Source of the DNA: an uncultured Butyrivibrio sp.
Lineage (GTDB): Bacteria > Bacillota > Clostridia > Lachnospirales > Lachnospiraceae
Length of the DNA: 41,443 nucleotides
NCBI GenBank assembly: GCA_947168335.1
Contig: CAMVLM010000014.1
Location: 1-41,443 of the forward strand
Direction: 5' to 3'
Made by a program: the position numbers and the translations under genes. Shown one piece after another: positions 20,726 to 35,602 of the stretch; position 1 is the stretch's first letter; the number at the start of each line of letters is the position of its first letter. The notes beneath the pieces are model-generated. The model saw only the letters and a program-made list of their open reading frames with translations. It was not told where the DNA came from and did not search any database.

Positions 20726-22033
20726 ATGAAAAAGATTCTGATCGTTGACGATGAAAAGATTACTCTGAAAATGACCCAGCATATACTTGCGGGAAAATAT
20801 GAGACAATCTGCGTATCATCCGGTAAGAAAGCAATCGAGGCTTATAAGCATGAAAGACCTGATATGATCCTTACTGATCTTCATATGCCCGAAATGTCCG
20901 GATTTGAGCTTCAGAGCACTTTGCAGGATCAGTATGCCGAGCACATTCCTGTTATGTTTATGACTGCTGATGACAGCGATGAAACGGAGGGTAAGGGCTT
21001 TGAGGCAGGTGCCGTAGATTTTATCAGGAAGCCGTACAGAGCAGATGTTCTTCTTAAGAGAATAGAGAATATTCTGAAGAATGTTGAGGAGATAAAAGGC
21101 CTCAAAGCTGCTGCTGAGACGGATCCCATGACAGGTCTTCTCAACAAAGCATCTTCTCAGGTTGAGATCGGGGCAATGTGCCGTGAGAGCAGTGGTGTAC
21201 TCATGATGATAGATCTGGACAGCTTTAAGCTGGTCAACGATCTGTACGGGCACAGTATGGGCGATAAAGTGCTCATAAGATTTGCCGAGATCATTCGCGC
21301 AGCAATAAGGAGCAATGATATTGCTGGACGTATGGGCGGAGATGAGTTTATTGCTTTCTGCCAGAATATTATGGATGAAGATATAGTTGCGGAAAAAACC
21401 CGATATATAAATGAAGAACTGCTTAAGTCCGCTAAAGAATTCATGGGCGAGGATATGAACATCCCGCTGGGGGCATCGGTTGGTGCCGTATTAGCCCCTC
21501 AGGAAGGAACGGACTTCCTGACATTGTATAAAAAAGCTGACAAGGCGCTTTACAGTGTTAAGCAGAACGGAAAGCACGGACATTGTATGTTTGTTGAGCA
21601 TGCGGTGCCTGATGATGAAAAAGAAATACAGACCACAAGCATTGAGCAGGAGATGATGATCCTGGGCGAAAGAAACAAAGGGCGTGGAGCATATGCACTT
21701 CCTGTTGATCAGTTCAAGGTAATATACAGATTTCTGGCCAGAATGGAAGCCAATTACCAGAATGAAAACAGGTTTGTGATTTTTACGATTACGCCTGTTG
21801 ATGAAAAAGTTTCAGCGTCGGACCTGACAGAACGGTTTTATGAAATAATATGTAATTCTTTAAGGGGAAGTGATGTTGTAACTCACAACGGAAAGAACCG
21901 TGTGGAAGTGCTTCTGCTTGAAGCAGAACAGATATACTGCGATATGGTAATCAACAGAGTTCTTGATAACTGGAAAAAGAATTCCGAGAACCTGAAATGT
22001 ACTATTACTTATGAGATGGAAATTGTAAAGTGA
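20726..22033 (+). CDS. Response regulator diguanylate cyclase (REC-GGDEF)
   Basis: A 435-residue protein. The receiver domain (1-120) has DDE near the N-terminus, phospho-acceptor Asp in MILTDLHMPEMSG, and the FIRKPY Lys. The GGDEF domain (about 130-295) keeps the active motif RMGGDEF (about 204-208) and an RxxD inhibitory site (RSND) five residues before it, so it should make cyclic-di-GMP with product inhibition. The last 135 residues look like a second, degenerate cyclase-like fold with no signature motif. It is followed after 3 nt by a phosphodiesterase gene. Start ATG 20726; its ribosome site is weak (GGGGTATC). Confidence 0.9.
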   Translation: MKKILIVDDEKITLKMTQHILAGKYETICVSSGKKAIEAYKHERPDMILTDLHMPEMSGFELQSTLQDQYAEHIPVMFMTADDSDETEGKGFEAGAVDFIRKPYRADVLLKRIENILKNVEEIKGLKAAAETDPMTGLLNKASSQVEIGAMCRESSGVLMMIDLDSFKLVNDLYGHSMGDKVLIRFAEIIRAAIRSNDIAGRMGGDEFIAFCQNIMDEDIVAEKTRYINEELLKSAKEFMGEDMNIPLGASVGAVLAPQEGTDFLTLYKKADKALYSVKQNGKHGHCMFVEHAVPDDEKEIQTTSIEQEMMILGERNKGRGAYALPVDQFKVIYRFLARMEANYQNENRFVIFTITPVDEKVSASDLTERFYEIICNSLRGSDVVTHNGKNRVEVLLLEAEQIYCDMVINRVLDNWKKNSENLKCTITYEMEIVK

Positions 22034-22048
22034 AAAATGGAGTTATCA

Positions 22049-23359
22049 ATGAGTGGTTTTGATGGACATAACGGCGAGAACAAAAATGAAATGATGCTGC
22101 ATTATCTCACTGGGCTTCCAAACGCAGGTGGATACATCATGGCTGTTGGGAAACTTGCTGCGACTTCGGATATAACTAAGTATACCGCGTTTCAGTTTAA
22201 TCTGAAGGGATTTGGAAATATCAACCAGCGCTACGGTATGGACAGGGGCAACGAGATTATCAAGATGGTTGCAGCAAAAATCCGTAAGTTTCTGGGAGAA
22301 GATGAAATCCTTGGTCATCTGGGCGGTGATACTTTTGTTGCCATGGTAAAAAATGATAATCAGATAAAATTCTGCAGATTTTTACATGGGATAGAAGTCG
22401 AACTCCCCACAGAAAACGGTGTTGATAAGCTTAAAATATCATCCACAATTGGATTGTGGGAGATAGAGAATCCGCTTAATGATATGGGTGAAGTTATCTC
22501 CAACTCTTCAGTAGCACTTCAGTATGCGAAGCATGTGGTACATCAGCCTGTTGTAAAAGCCACTGCTGATATGCTCAGCAAAGTATCAATGCAGAAGACT
22601 ATCCTTGAGAGATATCATCAGGCTTTGGATAACAGGGAATTTCTGGTTTTCTATCAGCCTAAGGTTGATTCAAGAACAAAAACTCTTGTTGGTGCGGAGG
22701 GACTTGTCAGGTGGATACATGATGGAGAAATGGTTTCTCCCGGAGTCTTCATTCCGCCTCTCGAGCGCAATGGAGAGATAGTACTTCTTGATTATTATGT
22801 CCTTAAAAGAGCCTGTGAGGATATTAAAAACTGGATAGACCAGGGAATAGAACCTGTTCCGATATCAGTTAATTTTTCAAGAAAGGATCTGCTTGATCCT
22901 GATCTTGCAGAGAATATCGACAAAATAATAAATGCTTCCGGAATAGATAAGAAGTATATTGAGGCTGAAGTTACAGAGACTGTGGATGAGCAGGAGCACG
23001 GAGAACTTGCAACATTCATATCAGATCTTTATATGAGGGATATAAAAACCGCTATAGACGATTTTGGTGCAGGTTATTCATCTCTTGCAACCCTCAGGGA
23101 ATTCCAGGTACATACGCTGAAGATTGACAGATCTTTTATCAATACCGAAGACTTCTCCTGGAAGGATGAGATTATTCTCACAGACATTATCCACATGGCA
23201 AAGGCTTTGGGAATGGATGTTATAACAGAAGGAGTTGAGAGACAGGATCAGGTTGACTTCGTAAATAAGGTCGGATGTTATGTGATACAGGGCTTTTTCT
23301 ATGACAGACCTCTTCCCTATGATGATTTTGTAAACAGGCTTAAAAACAAGCAATATTGA
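22049..23359 (+). CDS. Degenerate GGDEF-EAL cyclic-di-GMP phosphodiesterase
   Basis: A 436-residue protein. ATG 22049 is placed 6 nt after GGAG; an in-frame ATG at 22037, overlapping that GGAG, remains possible and would add four residues. The N-terminal GGDEF domain has GHLGGDTFVAM, so the catalytic Glu is lost. The EAL domain starts at about residue 185 (LVGAEGLVRWIHD, EGL instead of EAL) and keeps the metal and catalytic residues: Asn in VNFSRKDL, Glu in EVTET, Asp-Asp in AIDDFGAGYSS, Lys in LKIDRSF, Glu in TEGVE and Gln in IQGFFYDRP. It should degrade cyclic-di-GMP. Together with the upstream cyclase it forms a two-gene make/break module. Confidence 0.9.
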   Translation: MSGFDGHNGENKNEMMLHYLTGLPNAGGYIMAVGKLAATSDITKYTAFQFNLKGFGNINQRYGMDRGNEIIKMVAAKIRKFLGEDEILGHLGGDTFVAMVKNDNQIKFCRFLHGIEVELPTENGVDKLKISSTIGLWEIENPLNDMGEVISNSSVALQYAKHVVHQPVVKATADMLSKVSMQKTILERYHQALDNREFLVFYQPKVDSRTKTLVGAEGLVRWIHDGEMVSPGVFIPPLERNGEIVLLDYYVLKRACEDIKNWIDQGIEPVPISVNFSRKDLLDPDLAENIDKIINASGIDKKYIEAEVTETVDEQEHGELATFISDLYMRDIKTAIDDFGAGYSSLATLREFQVHTLKIDRSFINTEDFSWKDEIILTDIIHMAKALGMDVITEGVERQDQVDFVNKVGCYVIQGFFYDRPLPYDDFVNRLKNKQY

Positions 23360-24256: not shown

Positions 24257-26977
24257 TTATAATCTGTCGCGAATTTCTTCTTCGGTTCTTTTTATCTCAA
24301 GCCAGAAATCTGATGCGCTCATTCGGATGGCTCCGGCGCCATATATGATCACCTGCTCGATGGCATCTGATGTTGCTACGGTTACGCGGCTTGTCTTGCT
24401 GTATTTGTGAGCTGTTCTTTCAATATACTGATCAGCGGTTTCAGCTTCTTTTGTAAATACCACATCAAGATTATTGTAGCGGTAAACCCTTTCGGTTCCA
24501 CCGGGCACCCGGTAAGCATCATAAACAAGGATCACGGTTTCTCTTCTGAAGCCCTGGAAATTTGAAAGAATATCCATGAGAGAATCTCTTGCGGATTTCA
24601 TATCCTTTTCAGCAAGGGATTTCAGCTCGGGGTTCGAATATATAATGTTATAGCCATCGACAAGAAGATATGCATCTTCGGGCTTGTATTCCTTTGGCGC
24701 GCGGTATTTTTTCTGAGGAGCTGAAGAGGCGGCTTTGCGCTTTCTTGCTTCCTCGGCTTTGGCATCATAACGGGGCTTCACCGGGCCGTAGGTCCGCTCA
24801 AAGATCCTGTCAAGCTCCTGAATGGTAGCATCATATGCCCTGGAGCGCTCTTCATAACTAAGCTCTTTCTCACCTCTTACATCGCTTGAACGGTAGCTTT
24901 GCAGCTTGTCTCCATATGCAGTAAGGTCTGTTTCAAAGACAGCGTCCGTATCGGAATCAGTAAGACCGCTATCCGGATTCCAGCCTGTTTCCACGTGCAT
25001 GTAGTTTCTGACTTCGTCCCATGGAATAACCGTGCCGGCACCGTGGGAACAAAAGACGCTTCCGGTAGGCTGGGCAAGATCTCTTTCGGGATCGTAGCCA
25101 TAGGCGGCAATTATTTCGTCGGAGTTATGACAGGGAGCATAACCGGACAGGCTAAGGTCGATTCTTCCCTGGCCATGAGTGTAGGAGATAAGTTCTCTTG
25201 CGTAGTCTCCAAGCTCGGATGCCGGAATTGTACCTGTAATAACAGCTTCGCCCTCAGCATTCATATCGGGAGGATTGCTGCTTCCGTTCATGCGGTTTAT
25301 ATCATTTAATGCTCGTCCAAGGCTCTCCTGAGGCAGAGTGATCTCATAATCATATACGGGTTCAAGTAGGATGCTTTCTGCCATCATAAGCCCCTGTCTC
25401 ACAGCGCGCATTGTGGCTTCTCTGAAGTCACCTCCCTCGGTATGCTTTTCGTGGGCACGGCCGCCGATAACAGTAATTCTCATATCAGTAATCTCTGATC
25501 CGGTGAGAACTCCTCTTATATGGAACTCATTAAGATGGGACAAAATCAGGTTCTGCCAGTTCCTTGCAAGGATATCCGTAGGGCAGTCCAGATCAAAAAC
25601 AAGTCCGCTTCCGGGTTCGCCGGGAGTGAGCATGAGATGAGCCTCAGCATAATGTCTTAACGGTTCAAAATGGCCGACACCTTCCACGGGAGCTTTGATT
25701 GTTTCTTTATATACAATGTTTCCCGGTGCGAAATCTATATCAAATCCAAATCTTTCCATGCAAAGATGCTTTAAAACTTCCATCTGTACCTGACCCATGA
25801 CCTGGACGGTTATATCGCCTGTCTCGGGAGATTTTTCCACTGATAAGAGAGGTTCTTCTTCCGATAAGGTTAAAAGATCGGAATACACTTTAAAGGGATC
25901 GGCATCCTCGGGAAGAATAAGTCTTGATGACAGTATCGGCTGTAAAAGGTCCTGTGAGCCTTCACTGCTTTTTCCAAGCCCCTGTCCCGCTTTTGATAAG
26001 GACAGACCTGTGACAGCAACGATCCTGCCGGCTTCGGCTTCTTTCATCAGTTCAAATTTTTCACCGGAGTAAAGTCGTATCTGGTCAACCTTTTCAGAAC
26101 CGGAAGGGAAGTCAACTATGTCTCTTGGATGCAGAGCGCCGCCTGTTATCTTCATCCATGTAAGGCGGCTGCCCTGGGAATCCCTGGAAATCTTGTACAC
26201 ACGTGCACTGAATTCAGCAGGATATTCCCGGGAAGCAGTAAGTGTGTCTAAGAGGTAAATGAGTTTGGATACGCCATCCATCTTAAGGGCAGAGCCAAAA
26301 ATGCAGGGCACAAGCTTCCTTTCCGATGCAAGTGACTGCGCGTCATCCAGAGTTACTTTCTGCTCTTTTTCCAGATAATTATCCAGCAGCACATCATCAC
26401 AGACAGCTATCTCTTCCTGAATTTCTTCTGATAAAAAGAGATCCTCCTTAATCTCTGTGGGTTCTTTGTCGGTTAAAAGCTCCGTGAAGTCTATTACATG
26501 AGCAAAAAGGTGCTCCCTTATATCCTTGAGGATGCTGTCTTTGTCAGTTCCGCTCTGATCCATTTTATTTACGAATATGAAAACCGGAACATGATAGTGC
26601 TCCAGAAGTCTCCACAGGAGTCTTACCTGGGCAGTGACCATATCTGCAGCGCTGATAATAAGTATGGCTGCATCCAGAACCTTCATGGTGCGCTCTGTCT
26701 CCGGGGCAAAATCAGCATGTCCCGGGGTATCAAGCAGAGTCACATGTGTATTTTCGGAAAAATCAAGCTCGGCCTGTTTTGAAAAAATTGTTATTCCACG
26801 GCTTCTTTCCAAAGAGTAGGTATCGAGAAAGGTATCCTTATGATCAACCCTGCCTGTTTTTCTTATTGCTCCCGTTAAAAAAAGCAGTGCCTCCGAGAGA
26901 GTTGTTTTTCCGGCATCAACATGTGCGTAAATGCCTATATTTAAGTGCTTTTTGTTAGTATTGTTTGTCTGATTCAT
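24257..26977 (-). CDS. TetM-like ribosome-protection GTPase fused to a Rae1/YacP-type NYN endonuclease domain
   Basis: A 906-residue protein. Residues of about 10-680 are an EF-G-like translational GTPase of the TetM/TetW group: G1 AHVDAGKTT, switch ERSRGITI, G3 DTPGHADF, G4 NKMD, then EF-G-type domains and the TetM-like stretch PTGSVFCSHGAGTVIPWDEV. A Lys/Arg/Ala-rich linker (about 735-765) leads to a C-terminal domain (about 767-906) matching Rae1/YacP: LLVDGYNIIYSN, LVYDAYRVPG, VVFTKEAETADQYIE, VATSDAIEQVIIYGAGA, with the four acidic residues of the NYN nuclease site. TetM-type proteins enter the ribosomal A site; B. subtilis Rae1 cuts mRNA there. TetM itself is about 640 residues and lacks this domain. 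No Shine-Dalgarno sequence precedes the ATG. Acquired tetracycline resistance is not implied. Confidence 0.9.
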   Translation of the reverse strand: MNQTNNTNKKHLNIGIYAHVDAGKTTLSEALLFLTGAIRKTGRVDHKDTFLDTYSLERSRGITIFSKQAELDFSENTHVTLLDTPGHADFAPETERTMKVLDAAILIISAADMVTAQVRLLWRLLEHYHVPVFIFVNKMDQSGTDKDSILKDIREHLFAHVIDFTELLTDKEPTEIKEDLFLSEEIQEEIAVCDDVLLDNYLEKEQKVTLDDAQSLASERKLVPCIFGSALKMDGVSKLIYLLDTLTASREYPAEFSARVYKISRDSQGSRLTWMKITGGALHPRDIVDFPSGSEKVDQIRLYSGEKFELMKEAEAGRIVAVTGLSLSKAGQGLGKSSEGSQDLLQPILSSRLILPEDADPFKVYSDLLTLSEEEPLLSVEKSPETGDITVQVMGQVQMEVLKHLCMERFGFDIDFAPGNIVYKETIKAPVEGVGHFEPLRHYAEAHLMLTPGEPGSGLVFDLDCPTDILARNWQNLILSHLNEFHIRGVLTGSEITDMRITVIGGRAHEKHTEGGDFREATMRAVRQGLMMAESILLEPVYDYEITLPQESLGRALNDINRMNGSSNPPDMNAEGEAVITGTIPASELGDYARELISYTHGQGRIDLSLSGYAPCHNSDEIIAAYGYDPERDLAQPTGSVFCSHGAGTVIPWDEVRNYMHVETGWNPDSGLTDSDTDAVFETDLTAYGDKLQSYRSSDVRGEKELSYEERSRAYDATIQELDRIFERTYGPVKPRYDAKAEEARKRKAASSAPQKKYRAPKEYKPEDAYLLVDGYNIIYSNPELKSLAEKDMKSARDSLMDILSNFQGFRRETVILVYDAYRVPGGTERVYRYNNLDVVFTKEAETADQYIERTAHKYSKTSRVTVATSDAIEQVIIYGAGAIRMSASDFWLEIKRTEEEIRDRL

Positions 26978-27071: not shown

Positions 27072-27145
27072 CGGGGTGTAGCGCAGTTGGTTAGCGCGCT
27101 ATCTTAGGGAGGTAGAGGCCGCGAGTTCGAGTCCCGCCACTCCGA
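27072..27145 (+). tRNA. tRNA-Pro (AGG)
   Basis: Acceptor CGGGGTG pairs with CACTCCG; the C1-G72 first pair is typical of tRNA-Pro. The anticodon stem CTATC/GGTAG encloses TTAGGGA, giving anticodon AGG with G37. The T-stem GCGAG/CCCGC has one A-C mismatch. The discriminator is A. The A at wobble position 34 would need conversion to inosine by TadA. Confidence 0.9.
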
Positions 27146-27153
27146 CTAAACAG

Positions 27154-35506: not shown

Positions 35507-35590
35507 GCGGAAGTGTCGGAATTGGCAGACGAGCAAGACTAAGGATCTTGTGATGGCTACATCGTGAGGGTTCAAGTCCCTTCTTCCGCA
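35507..35590 (+). tRNA. tRNA-Leu (AAG), likely integration site of the downstream element
   Basis: Acceptor GCGGAAG pairs with CTTCCGC. The anticodon stem CAAGA/TCTTG encloses CTAAGGA (anticodon AAG), with a long variable arm and discriminator A. The gene is intact and lies immediately before the mobile element, so its 3' end is the probable attachment core. A at wobble position 34 implies inosine modification by TadA. Confidence 0.93.
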
Positions 35591-35602
35591 CGAAAAACTG
35601 AC

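Follow-up and report, generated by a model that had tools for sequence, protein, structure and literature searches.

A translational GTPase fused to a Rae1-like NYN nuclease probably takes the place of free Rae1 in Butyrivibrio and related bacteria

Tet–YacP fusions were described in ten Clostridiales species by Atkinson 2015 (BMC Genomics 16:78, PMC4342817), in one or two sentences that present them as clostridial Tet proteins that gained a YacP-like NYN domain, possibly as a resistance mechanism. The gene analyzed here has the same domain combination. It lies at 24257–26977 on the minus strand of contig CAMVLM010000014.1 (assembly GCA_947168335.1, an uncultured Butyrivibrio sp. of the order Lachnospirales), whose 41,443 nucleotides we refer to as the window. 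ORF, Pfam and PDB matches show that its 906 residues comprise a translational GTPase, an extension, a linker and, at the end, an NYN nuclease domain of the YacP/Rae1 type. The brief description in PMC4342817 does not treat the GTPases as a family of their own, and it mentions neither a common origin of the fusions nor the replacement of rae1 and its remnants, the lost tail or the residues at the domain IV tip. Our literature coverage, which left the main Rae1 papers outside it, yielded no further treatment of the fusion. Condon 2018 reportedly treats the distribution of Rae1 and may discuss the fusion. We present evidence that the gene is probably a housekeeping translation factor and not a tetracycline-resistance gene.

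The fusion resembles several described systems and departs from each of them. Rae1/YacP of B. subtilis (5mq8 and 5mq9) shares its NYN domain, aligned over 135 residues (E = 4.8e-24), and the acidic residues of that domain. Rae1 is a separate small protein, and its homologues in the order are encoded between rlmB and sigH and end in a conserved tail. In the fusion, by contrast, the NYN domain ends a GTPase, the gene lies elsewhere, and only 19 residues follow the S887 column in the window's protein, among which the conserved Rae1 tail was not found. Tet(M), Tet(O) and Tet(W) have the same five-domain, EF-G-like layout, but the fusion scores below the tet cut-off, falls in a separate clade, has a different domain IV tip and carries an additional extension. 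EF-G shares the domains and the tip histidine (H573 in T. thermophilus, which aligns with H509 here), and the fusion falls below the EF-G cut-off as well. RelE-type endonucleases are toxins of another fold, without a GTPase. They would share the outcome, an A-site mRNA cut, and are named as A-site mRNA endonucleases in PMC12320835.

The fusion gene is an uninterrupted open reading frame (ORF) from ATG to TAA in the ORF list of the window, and the plus strand of the same interval, read in the same frame, contains many stops. An original prediction for this stretch had described a single 906-residue GTPase–NYN polypeptide without giving a strand, and that description holds. The same architecture in 39 full-length fusions of the order and in 80 of 80 named loci rules out an assembly artefact; the named loci are the 80 best matches among 595 relatives retrieved by a query containing the NYN domain, and the nearest named relatives are mostly Butyrivibrio.

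The nuclease domain (residues 771–904; 24266–24667) matches Pfam NYN_YacP at 155.5 bits against a cut-off of 24.6 (E = 1.7e-45). Four residues are predicted to be catalytic: D774 in DGYN (24656–24658), D820 in YDAY/FDAY (24518–24520), D849 in TAD (24431–24433) and D871 in TSD (24365–24367). None of the four is missing from any of 134 distinct fused proteins, a set chosen by BLAST match to the NYN domain and made up of the window's protein, 39 from the order, 78 from named loci and 16 others; E853 is kept in 132 of them. The earlier claim that the C-terminal domain matches Rae1/YacP with four acidic residues is therefore confirmed by the Pfam score, the alignment to the solved structures and the conservation of the acids, and the loss of acidic residues in homologues that would speak against a nuclease was not seen. 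No GTPase-plus-extension frame of at least 780 residues among those fetched lacked an NYN match. These comparisons support a predicted nuclease active site that is intact.

The distribution of the two genes gives good support to the conclusion that the separate rae1 has been displaced by the fusion. Among 196 sampled genomes of the order, PF05991 is found in 163; the fusion is present in 66 genomes, a YacP domain without linkage to a GTPase in 97 (in listed frames of about 170–272 residues), and no YacP domain in 33. An intact separate rae1 accompanies the fusion in 1 of the 66 fused genomes (G171), and a YacP domain is present in 97 of the 130 other genomes (Fisher p = 2e-25, in a test that ignores relatedness and sets intact copies in fused genomes against any YacP match in the others). 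Second YacP matches among the 66 were seen in G021, G050, G171 and G159. Those of G159 are pieces of a single broken-up fusion contig. The match in G050 is a fragment of 41 bits with an internal stop and that in G021 a fragment of 27 bits over 26 positions, and each lies between rlmB and sigH; together with G171, these genomes resemble three stages in the loss of rae1. In the fused genomes outside the order (14 of 14), no YacP domain other than that of the fusion is present, and a separate YacP domain is present in 2 of 2 genomes in which a GTPase of the same kind has no nuclease attached (hereafter, the non-fused GTPase).

The place vacated by rae1 can be recognized in many of the fused genomes. 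In the 25 best-scoring separate rae1 loci that were fetched, same-strand neighbours rlmB and sigH were recovered in 19 and 22, respectively, and the B. subtilis rae1 gene shares a transcript with yacO, which is homologous to rlmB (PMC6613710). In the window's genome, rlmB and sigH are adjacent on contig C48, 45 bp apart, with no YacP match between them. Of 24 fused genomes checked, the rlmB–sigH gap, taken as the distance between profile matches, is below 600 bp in 18 and below 300 bp in 17; the other six comprise three with 2–10 kb of other DNA without a YacP match, one with the two genes on different contigs and two with no clear sigH. Fused genomes coexist with genomes that have only a separate rae1 in families f1, f17, f22 and f24, and genus g96 contains one of each kind (G153 fused, G161 separate). 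Either the switch to the fusion occurred repeatedly, or the losses came after a period of overlap.

The fused nuclease has also changed at its C terminus. The S887 column is followed by 48–51 residues in 25 of 25 separate Rae1 sequences and by 18–190 residues in 135 fused rows. A tail motif, picked after viewing the tails, is present in 22 of 25 separate Rae1 sequences vs 8 of 134 fusions; with a narrower first version, the counts were 17 of 25 and 3 of 134. The mutation R166P acts as a loss of function in B. subtilis Rae1 (PMC6613710), and by its numbering R166 would lie in the C-terminal tail. We infer that the tail serves targeting in Rae1 and that the GTPase would substitute for it in the fusions, most of which, as sampled, have lost it.

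Since fused genomes hardly ever retain an intact separate rae1, while the active site of the fusion is preserved, we think it likely that the fusion does Rae1's job. With moderate confidence we go further and take the fusion to be the Rae1 of these bacteria: it would cut mRNA on paused ribosomes, and the GTPase would provide the engagement with the ribosome. The nuclease might instead act on rRNA or tRNA, in maturation or stress damage, the GTPase giving access to the ribosome, and NYN/YacP domains were indeed first proposed for rRNA and tRNA maturation, as cited in PMC4342817. However, B. subtilis Rae1 is described as an A-site mRNA endonuclease (PMC6613710, PMC10100781, PMC12320835) and the fusion stands in for the rae1 gene, so that a target in rRNA or tRNA seems to us quite improbable.

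The GTPase part contains all EF-G domains I–V by Pfam: the G domain (GTP_EFTU, residues 9–246; 26240–26953), with its VDAGKTT, DTPGH and NKMD motifs intact; domain II (EF-G_D2, residues 255–333; 25979–26215); domain III (EFG_III, residues 357–416; 25730–25909); domain IV (EFG_IV, residues 420–533; 25379–25720), with a tip loop recognized in alignments (residues 504–519, GGRAHEKHTEGGDFR; 25421–25468); and domain V (EFG_C, residues 537–619; 25121–25369), all on the minus strand. By alignment and model, the end of domain V runs into a family-specific extension (residues 598–668, CHN...SVFCxHG...W...MH; 24974–25186), followed by a linker of variable length (residues 669–770; 24668–24973); the distance from H661 to D774 is 61–143 residues across the fusions. 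Pfam has no match between residue 619 and the NYN domain, and the extension past residue 619 has no Pfam family and no sequence match in the PDB.

Several observations would fit a ribosomal protection protein for tetracycline resistance in which the added nuclease is a new resistance mechanism. The fusions are named Tet proteins in PMC4342817, a fusion of Agathobacter rectalis is labelled a TetM-family protein, TetM is the best match over the whole length among solved structures (aligned residues 10–613), and NF012153 (tet_protect) is the best NCBIfam model. The tet_protect score, however, is 426.3 bits vs a curated cut-off of 775. Scores also fall short for NF033148 (285.2 vs 1100) and for the EF-G family model TIGR00484 (252.3 vs 659.4), and domains IV and V taken together (residues 420–620) are nearer to EF-G (2e-16) than to TetO (3e-13) or TetM (7.5e-12). 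At the tip, Y507 of TetM is replaced by H509 in 131 of 134 fused and 23 of 23 non-fused GTPases, and P509 of TetM by K511 in 131 of 134 fused and 21 of 23 non-fused ones; of 10 tet or tet-like comparators, six have Y and P, and four that score below the cut-off have D or C together with V. The extension after domain V is common to fused and non-fused GTPases and is absent by sequence from all 10 comparators. Genes above the tet_M_W cut-off (1100 bits) occur in 6 of the order's 196 genomes, the full-length fusions listed mostly reach about 240–330 with that model, and two genomes (G005 and G153) hold a genuine tet_M_W gene beside the fusion. The window's genome also has a separate EF-G of its own, on contig C97.

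Phylogeny points the same way. The trees draw on part of the fetched set: roughly half of the fusions from the order, the 16 from L223–L238 and a few from the 80 named loci. The careful tree has 71 rows and leaves out EF-G and one long row. Its 41 fused rows group together with support 100/99 and are placed among 22 non-fused GTPases, outside the tet clade, which unites 8 tet or tet-like rows (3 of them above the tet_M_W cut-off) at 100/100. A quick tree (73 rows, 42 fused) agrees. The 41 fused rows need one change only, and therefore no reversion is seen in the sample. As far as sequences can show it, the sampled fused GTPases share one origin. They belong to a family that has relatives in EF-G and the Tet proteins, stands apart from each and can be told by its own extension at the C terminus; the GTPase is not a Tet protein. 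The earlier description of the GTPase as TetM-type thus survives in part. TetM remains the best whole-length solved match, but the tet cut-off is not reached, the protein lies outside the tet clade, its tip differs and its domains IV and V are nearer to EF-G.

A profile of the extension matches 88 of the 196 genomes of the order, of which 64 are fused, 22 have the non-fused GTPase and two are unclassed (G084 and G174, with an extension match and no NYN found in either genome). In two further genomes, of genus g46 (G039 and G164), an NYN domain stands behind GTPase domains I–III on the same strand, which brings the fused genomes to 66. A YacP domain is found elsewhere in 21 of the 22 genomes with the non-fused GTPase (Fisher p = 0.025, computed before two other genomes were reclassed), which is weak evidence that the non-fused GTPase and Rae1 co-occur. 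In G024, the non-fused GTPase (L205, 740–2706) is split over frames with stops inside, and a separate rae1 is kept; the GTPase seems dispensable there.

In the window's family (f1), 20 of the 22 genomes sampled carry the fusion, a distribution unlike that of a patchy mobile gene, and a mobile resistance gene was rejected on the counts of plasmid, phage and viral-contig records. Of 72,556 plasmid records, only 2 (252 and 518 kb, neither mobilizable) match the final 307 residues over 80% or more of their length; 2 of 50,697 phage records match, both unverified faecal scaffolds; and of 47 viral-contig stretches that fit a pattern, two encode a relative, which matches only query residues 1–164 and not the NYN domain. 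Taking these counts together with the scores, the tree and the tip, we regard tetracycline resistance as the function of the fusion as highly improbable. The original prediction had favoured a role in translation over simple drug resistance, and it is upheld by the near-constant presence in the family, the displacement of rae1, and genuine tet genes that are separate and rare.

Records of mobile elements yielded some further observations. In the IMG/VR contigs L338 and L339 (1606–2160), the part from domain IV to the extension is matched and the NYN domain is not. The fusion on the 252-kb Agathobacter rectalis plasmid (L357, 1156–3957; NZ_CP143948.1) bears an annotation as resistance protein of the TetM/TetW/TetO/TetS family, and in its sister record (L358) the label is translation factor GTPase. 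A separate YacP/Rae1-like NYN gene is carried by 12 Clostridioides plasmid records of about 97–150 kb, possibly phage-like, and there are matches in phage records of Listeria, Staphylococcus and Enterococcus as well.

We examined how the two halves might be arranged in a predicted structure of the fusion, with a mean predicted local distance difference test score (pLDDT) of 85.8 and a predicted template modelling score (pTM) of 0.68. The GTPase, the extension to about residue 660 and the NYN domain are ordered, and the low-confidence stretches are residues 1–5, 671–705, 738–740 and 750–764. The top structural matches are EF-G chains. The alignment to TetM (3j9y) covers model residues 9–655, and since it runs to residue 655, the extension may occupy the place of TetM's short C-terminal part. 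No Rae1 row is among the 50 structural matches listed, rows that barely probe the NYN part.

The mRNA cutting and GTP control that we propose for the fusion would proceed as follows. The GTPase module would bind the EF-G/Tet site of paused ribosomes, and domain IV would probe the A site. GTP hydrolysis and withdrawal of domain IV would then allow the flexibly tethered NYN domain to enter and cut the A-site mRNA, and this cut would start decay and ribosome rescue. Domain IV and the NYN domain cannot share the decoding centre, and the steps would therefore have to be sequential, or the NYN domain would cut just outside. The full GTP-coupled scheme is tentative, and we put it somewhat short of an even chance. 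A more specific form is an mRNA cutter gated by a translational GTPase, in which domain IV would sense an empty A site by means of its tip, with the EF-G-like histidine and a nearly invariant K-H-T-x-G-G-D-F, hydrolysis would hand the site to the Rae1 domain, and the non-fused GTPase would be a partner of Rae1 elsewhere; this we hold to be doubtful. To our knowledge, although no search was aimed at this point, no earlier mRNA-cutting enzyme gated by a translational GTPase is known.

A simpler arrangement would be an EF-G-like housekeeping factor and Rae1 that are functionally unlinked and were fused for co-expression or proximity to the ribosome, with no gating by GTP. The long, variable and partly disordered linker is compatible with it, as are the existence of the GTPase alone, mostly in genomes with a YacP domain elsewhere, and the two g46 fusions without a recognizable domain IV. 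On the other hand, the fused rows show no reversion, the erosion of the Rae1 tail after fusion suggests that targeting passed to the GTPase, and a chance joining of two proteins of the ribosomal A site would be surprising. On balance, we consider two unlinked activities unlikely.

A number of observations weigh against the fusion as a GTPase-directed Rae1 that has replaced the free enzyme. G171, a metagenome-assembled genome with 5% contamination, keeps both the fusion and its intact rae1, which lies between rlmB and sigH. The 33 genomes of the order without any YacP domain imply that Rae1 is dispensable in some of them. The tail motif persists in 8 of the 134 fusions. The model, at its pTM, leaves the position of the NYN domain relative to the GTPase undefined. 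Domain IV, domain V and the extension are not recognizable in G039 (L364, 2403–4844), in which about 87 codons separate domain III from the NYN domain, or in G164 (L365, 1705–4096), in which a stop falls inside the NYN match; either the two genes are in decay or the nuclease can do without domain IV, and the pair tells against a strict need for that domain. GTPases that share the tip and the extension are also found with no NYN domain attached, and the GTPase therefore has a role of its own. Finally, a tree built from the NYN domain only groups the Butyrivibrio group and L042 with separate Rae1 sequences, at moderate support; a single NYN clade was not rejected by the approximately unbiased (AU) test (p = 0.345), and the tree leaves room for another origin, or for a swapped domain, in Butyrivibrio.

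The surroundings of the gene are not conserved. No conserved neighbour emerged from the 80 named loci, in which the largest cluster, with ORFs overlapping the fusion set aside, comprises 8. A defence system was considered and rejected, as PADLOC gave only LeoA (E = 0.0047). The Rfam scan of the window found tRNAs only. Just upstream of the fusion gene and divergent from it lies tRNA-Pro(AGG) (27072–27146, plus strand), and tRNA-Leu(AAG) lies at 35507–35591; anticodons with A34, as in these two, are unusual for bacteria. At 20726–23359 on the plus strand, two neighbouring genes resemble, when the ORF list is read by eye, a response regulator with a GGDEF domain and a GGDEF–EAL protein, likely a cyclic di-GMP pair.

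The lineage described here has the Rae1 domain tied to a GTPase and the free enzyme decayed, which makes the question of how Rae1 reaches the ribosome directly testable. The non-fused GTPase family is a possible partner of Rae1 in other genomes. In one public record, what is probably a housekeeping gene of bacteria common in the gut and rumen carries a tetracycline-resistance label, and such labels could inflate counts of resistance genes.

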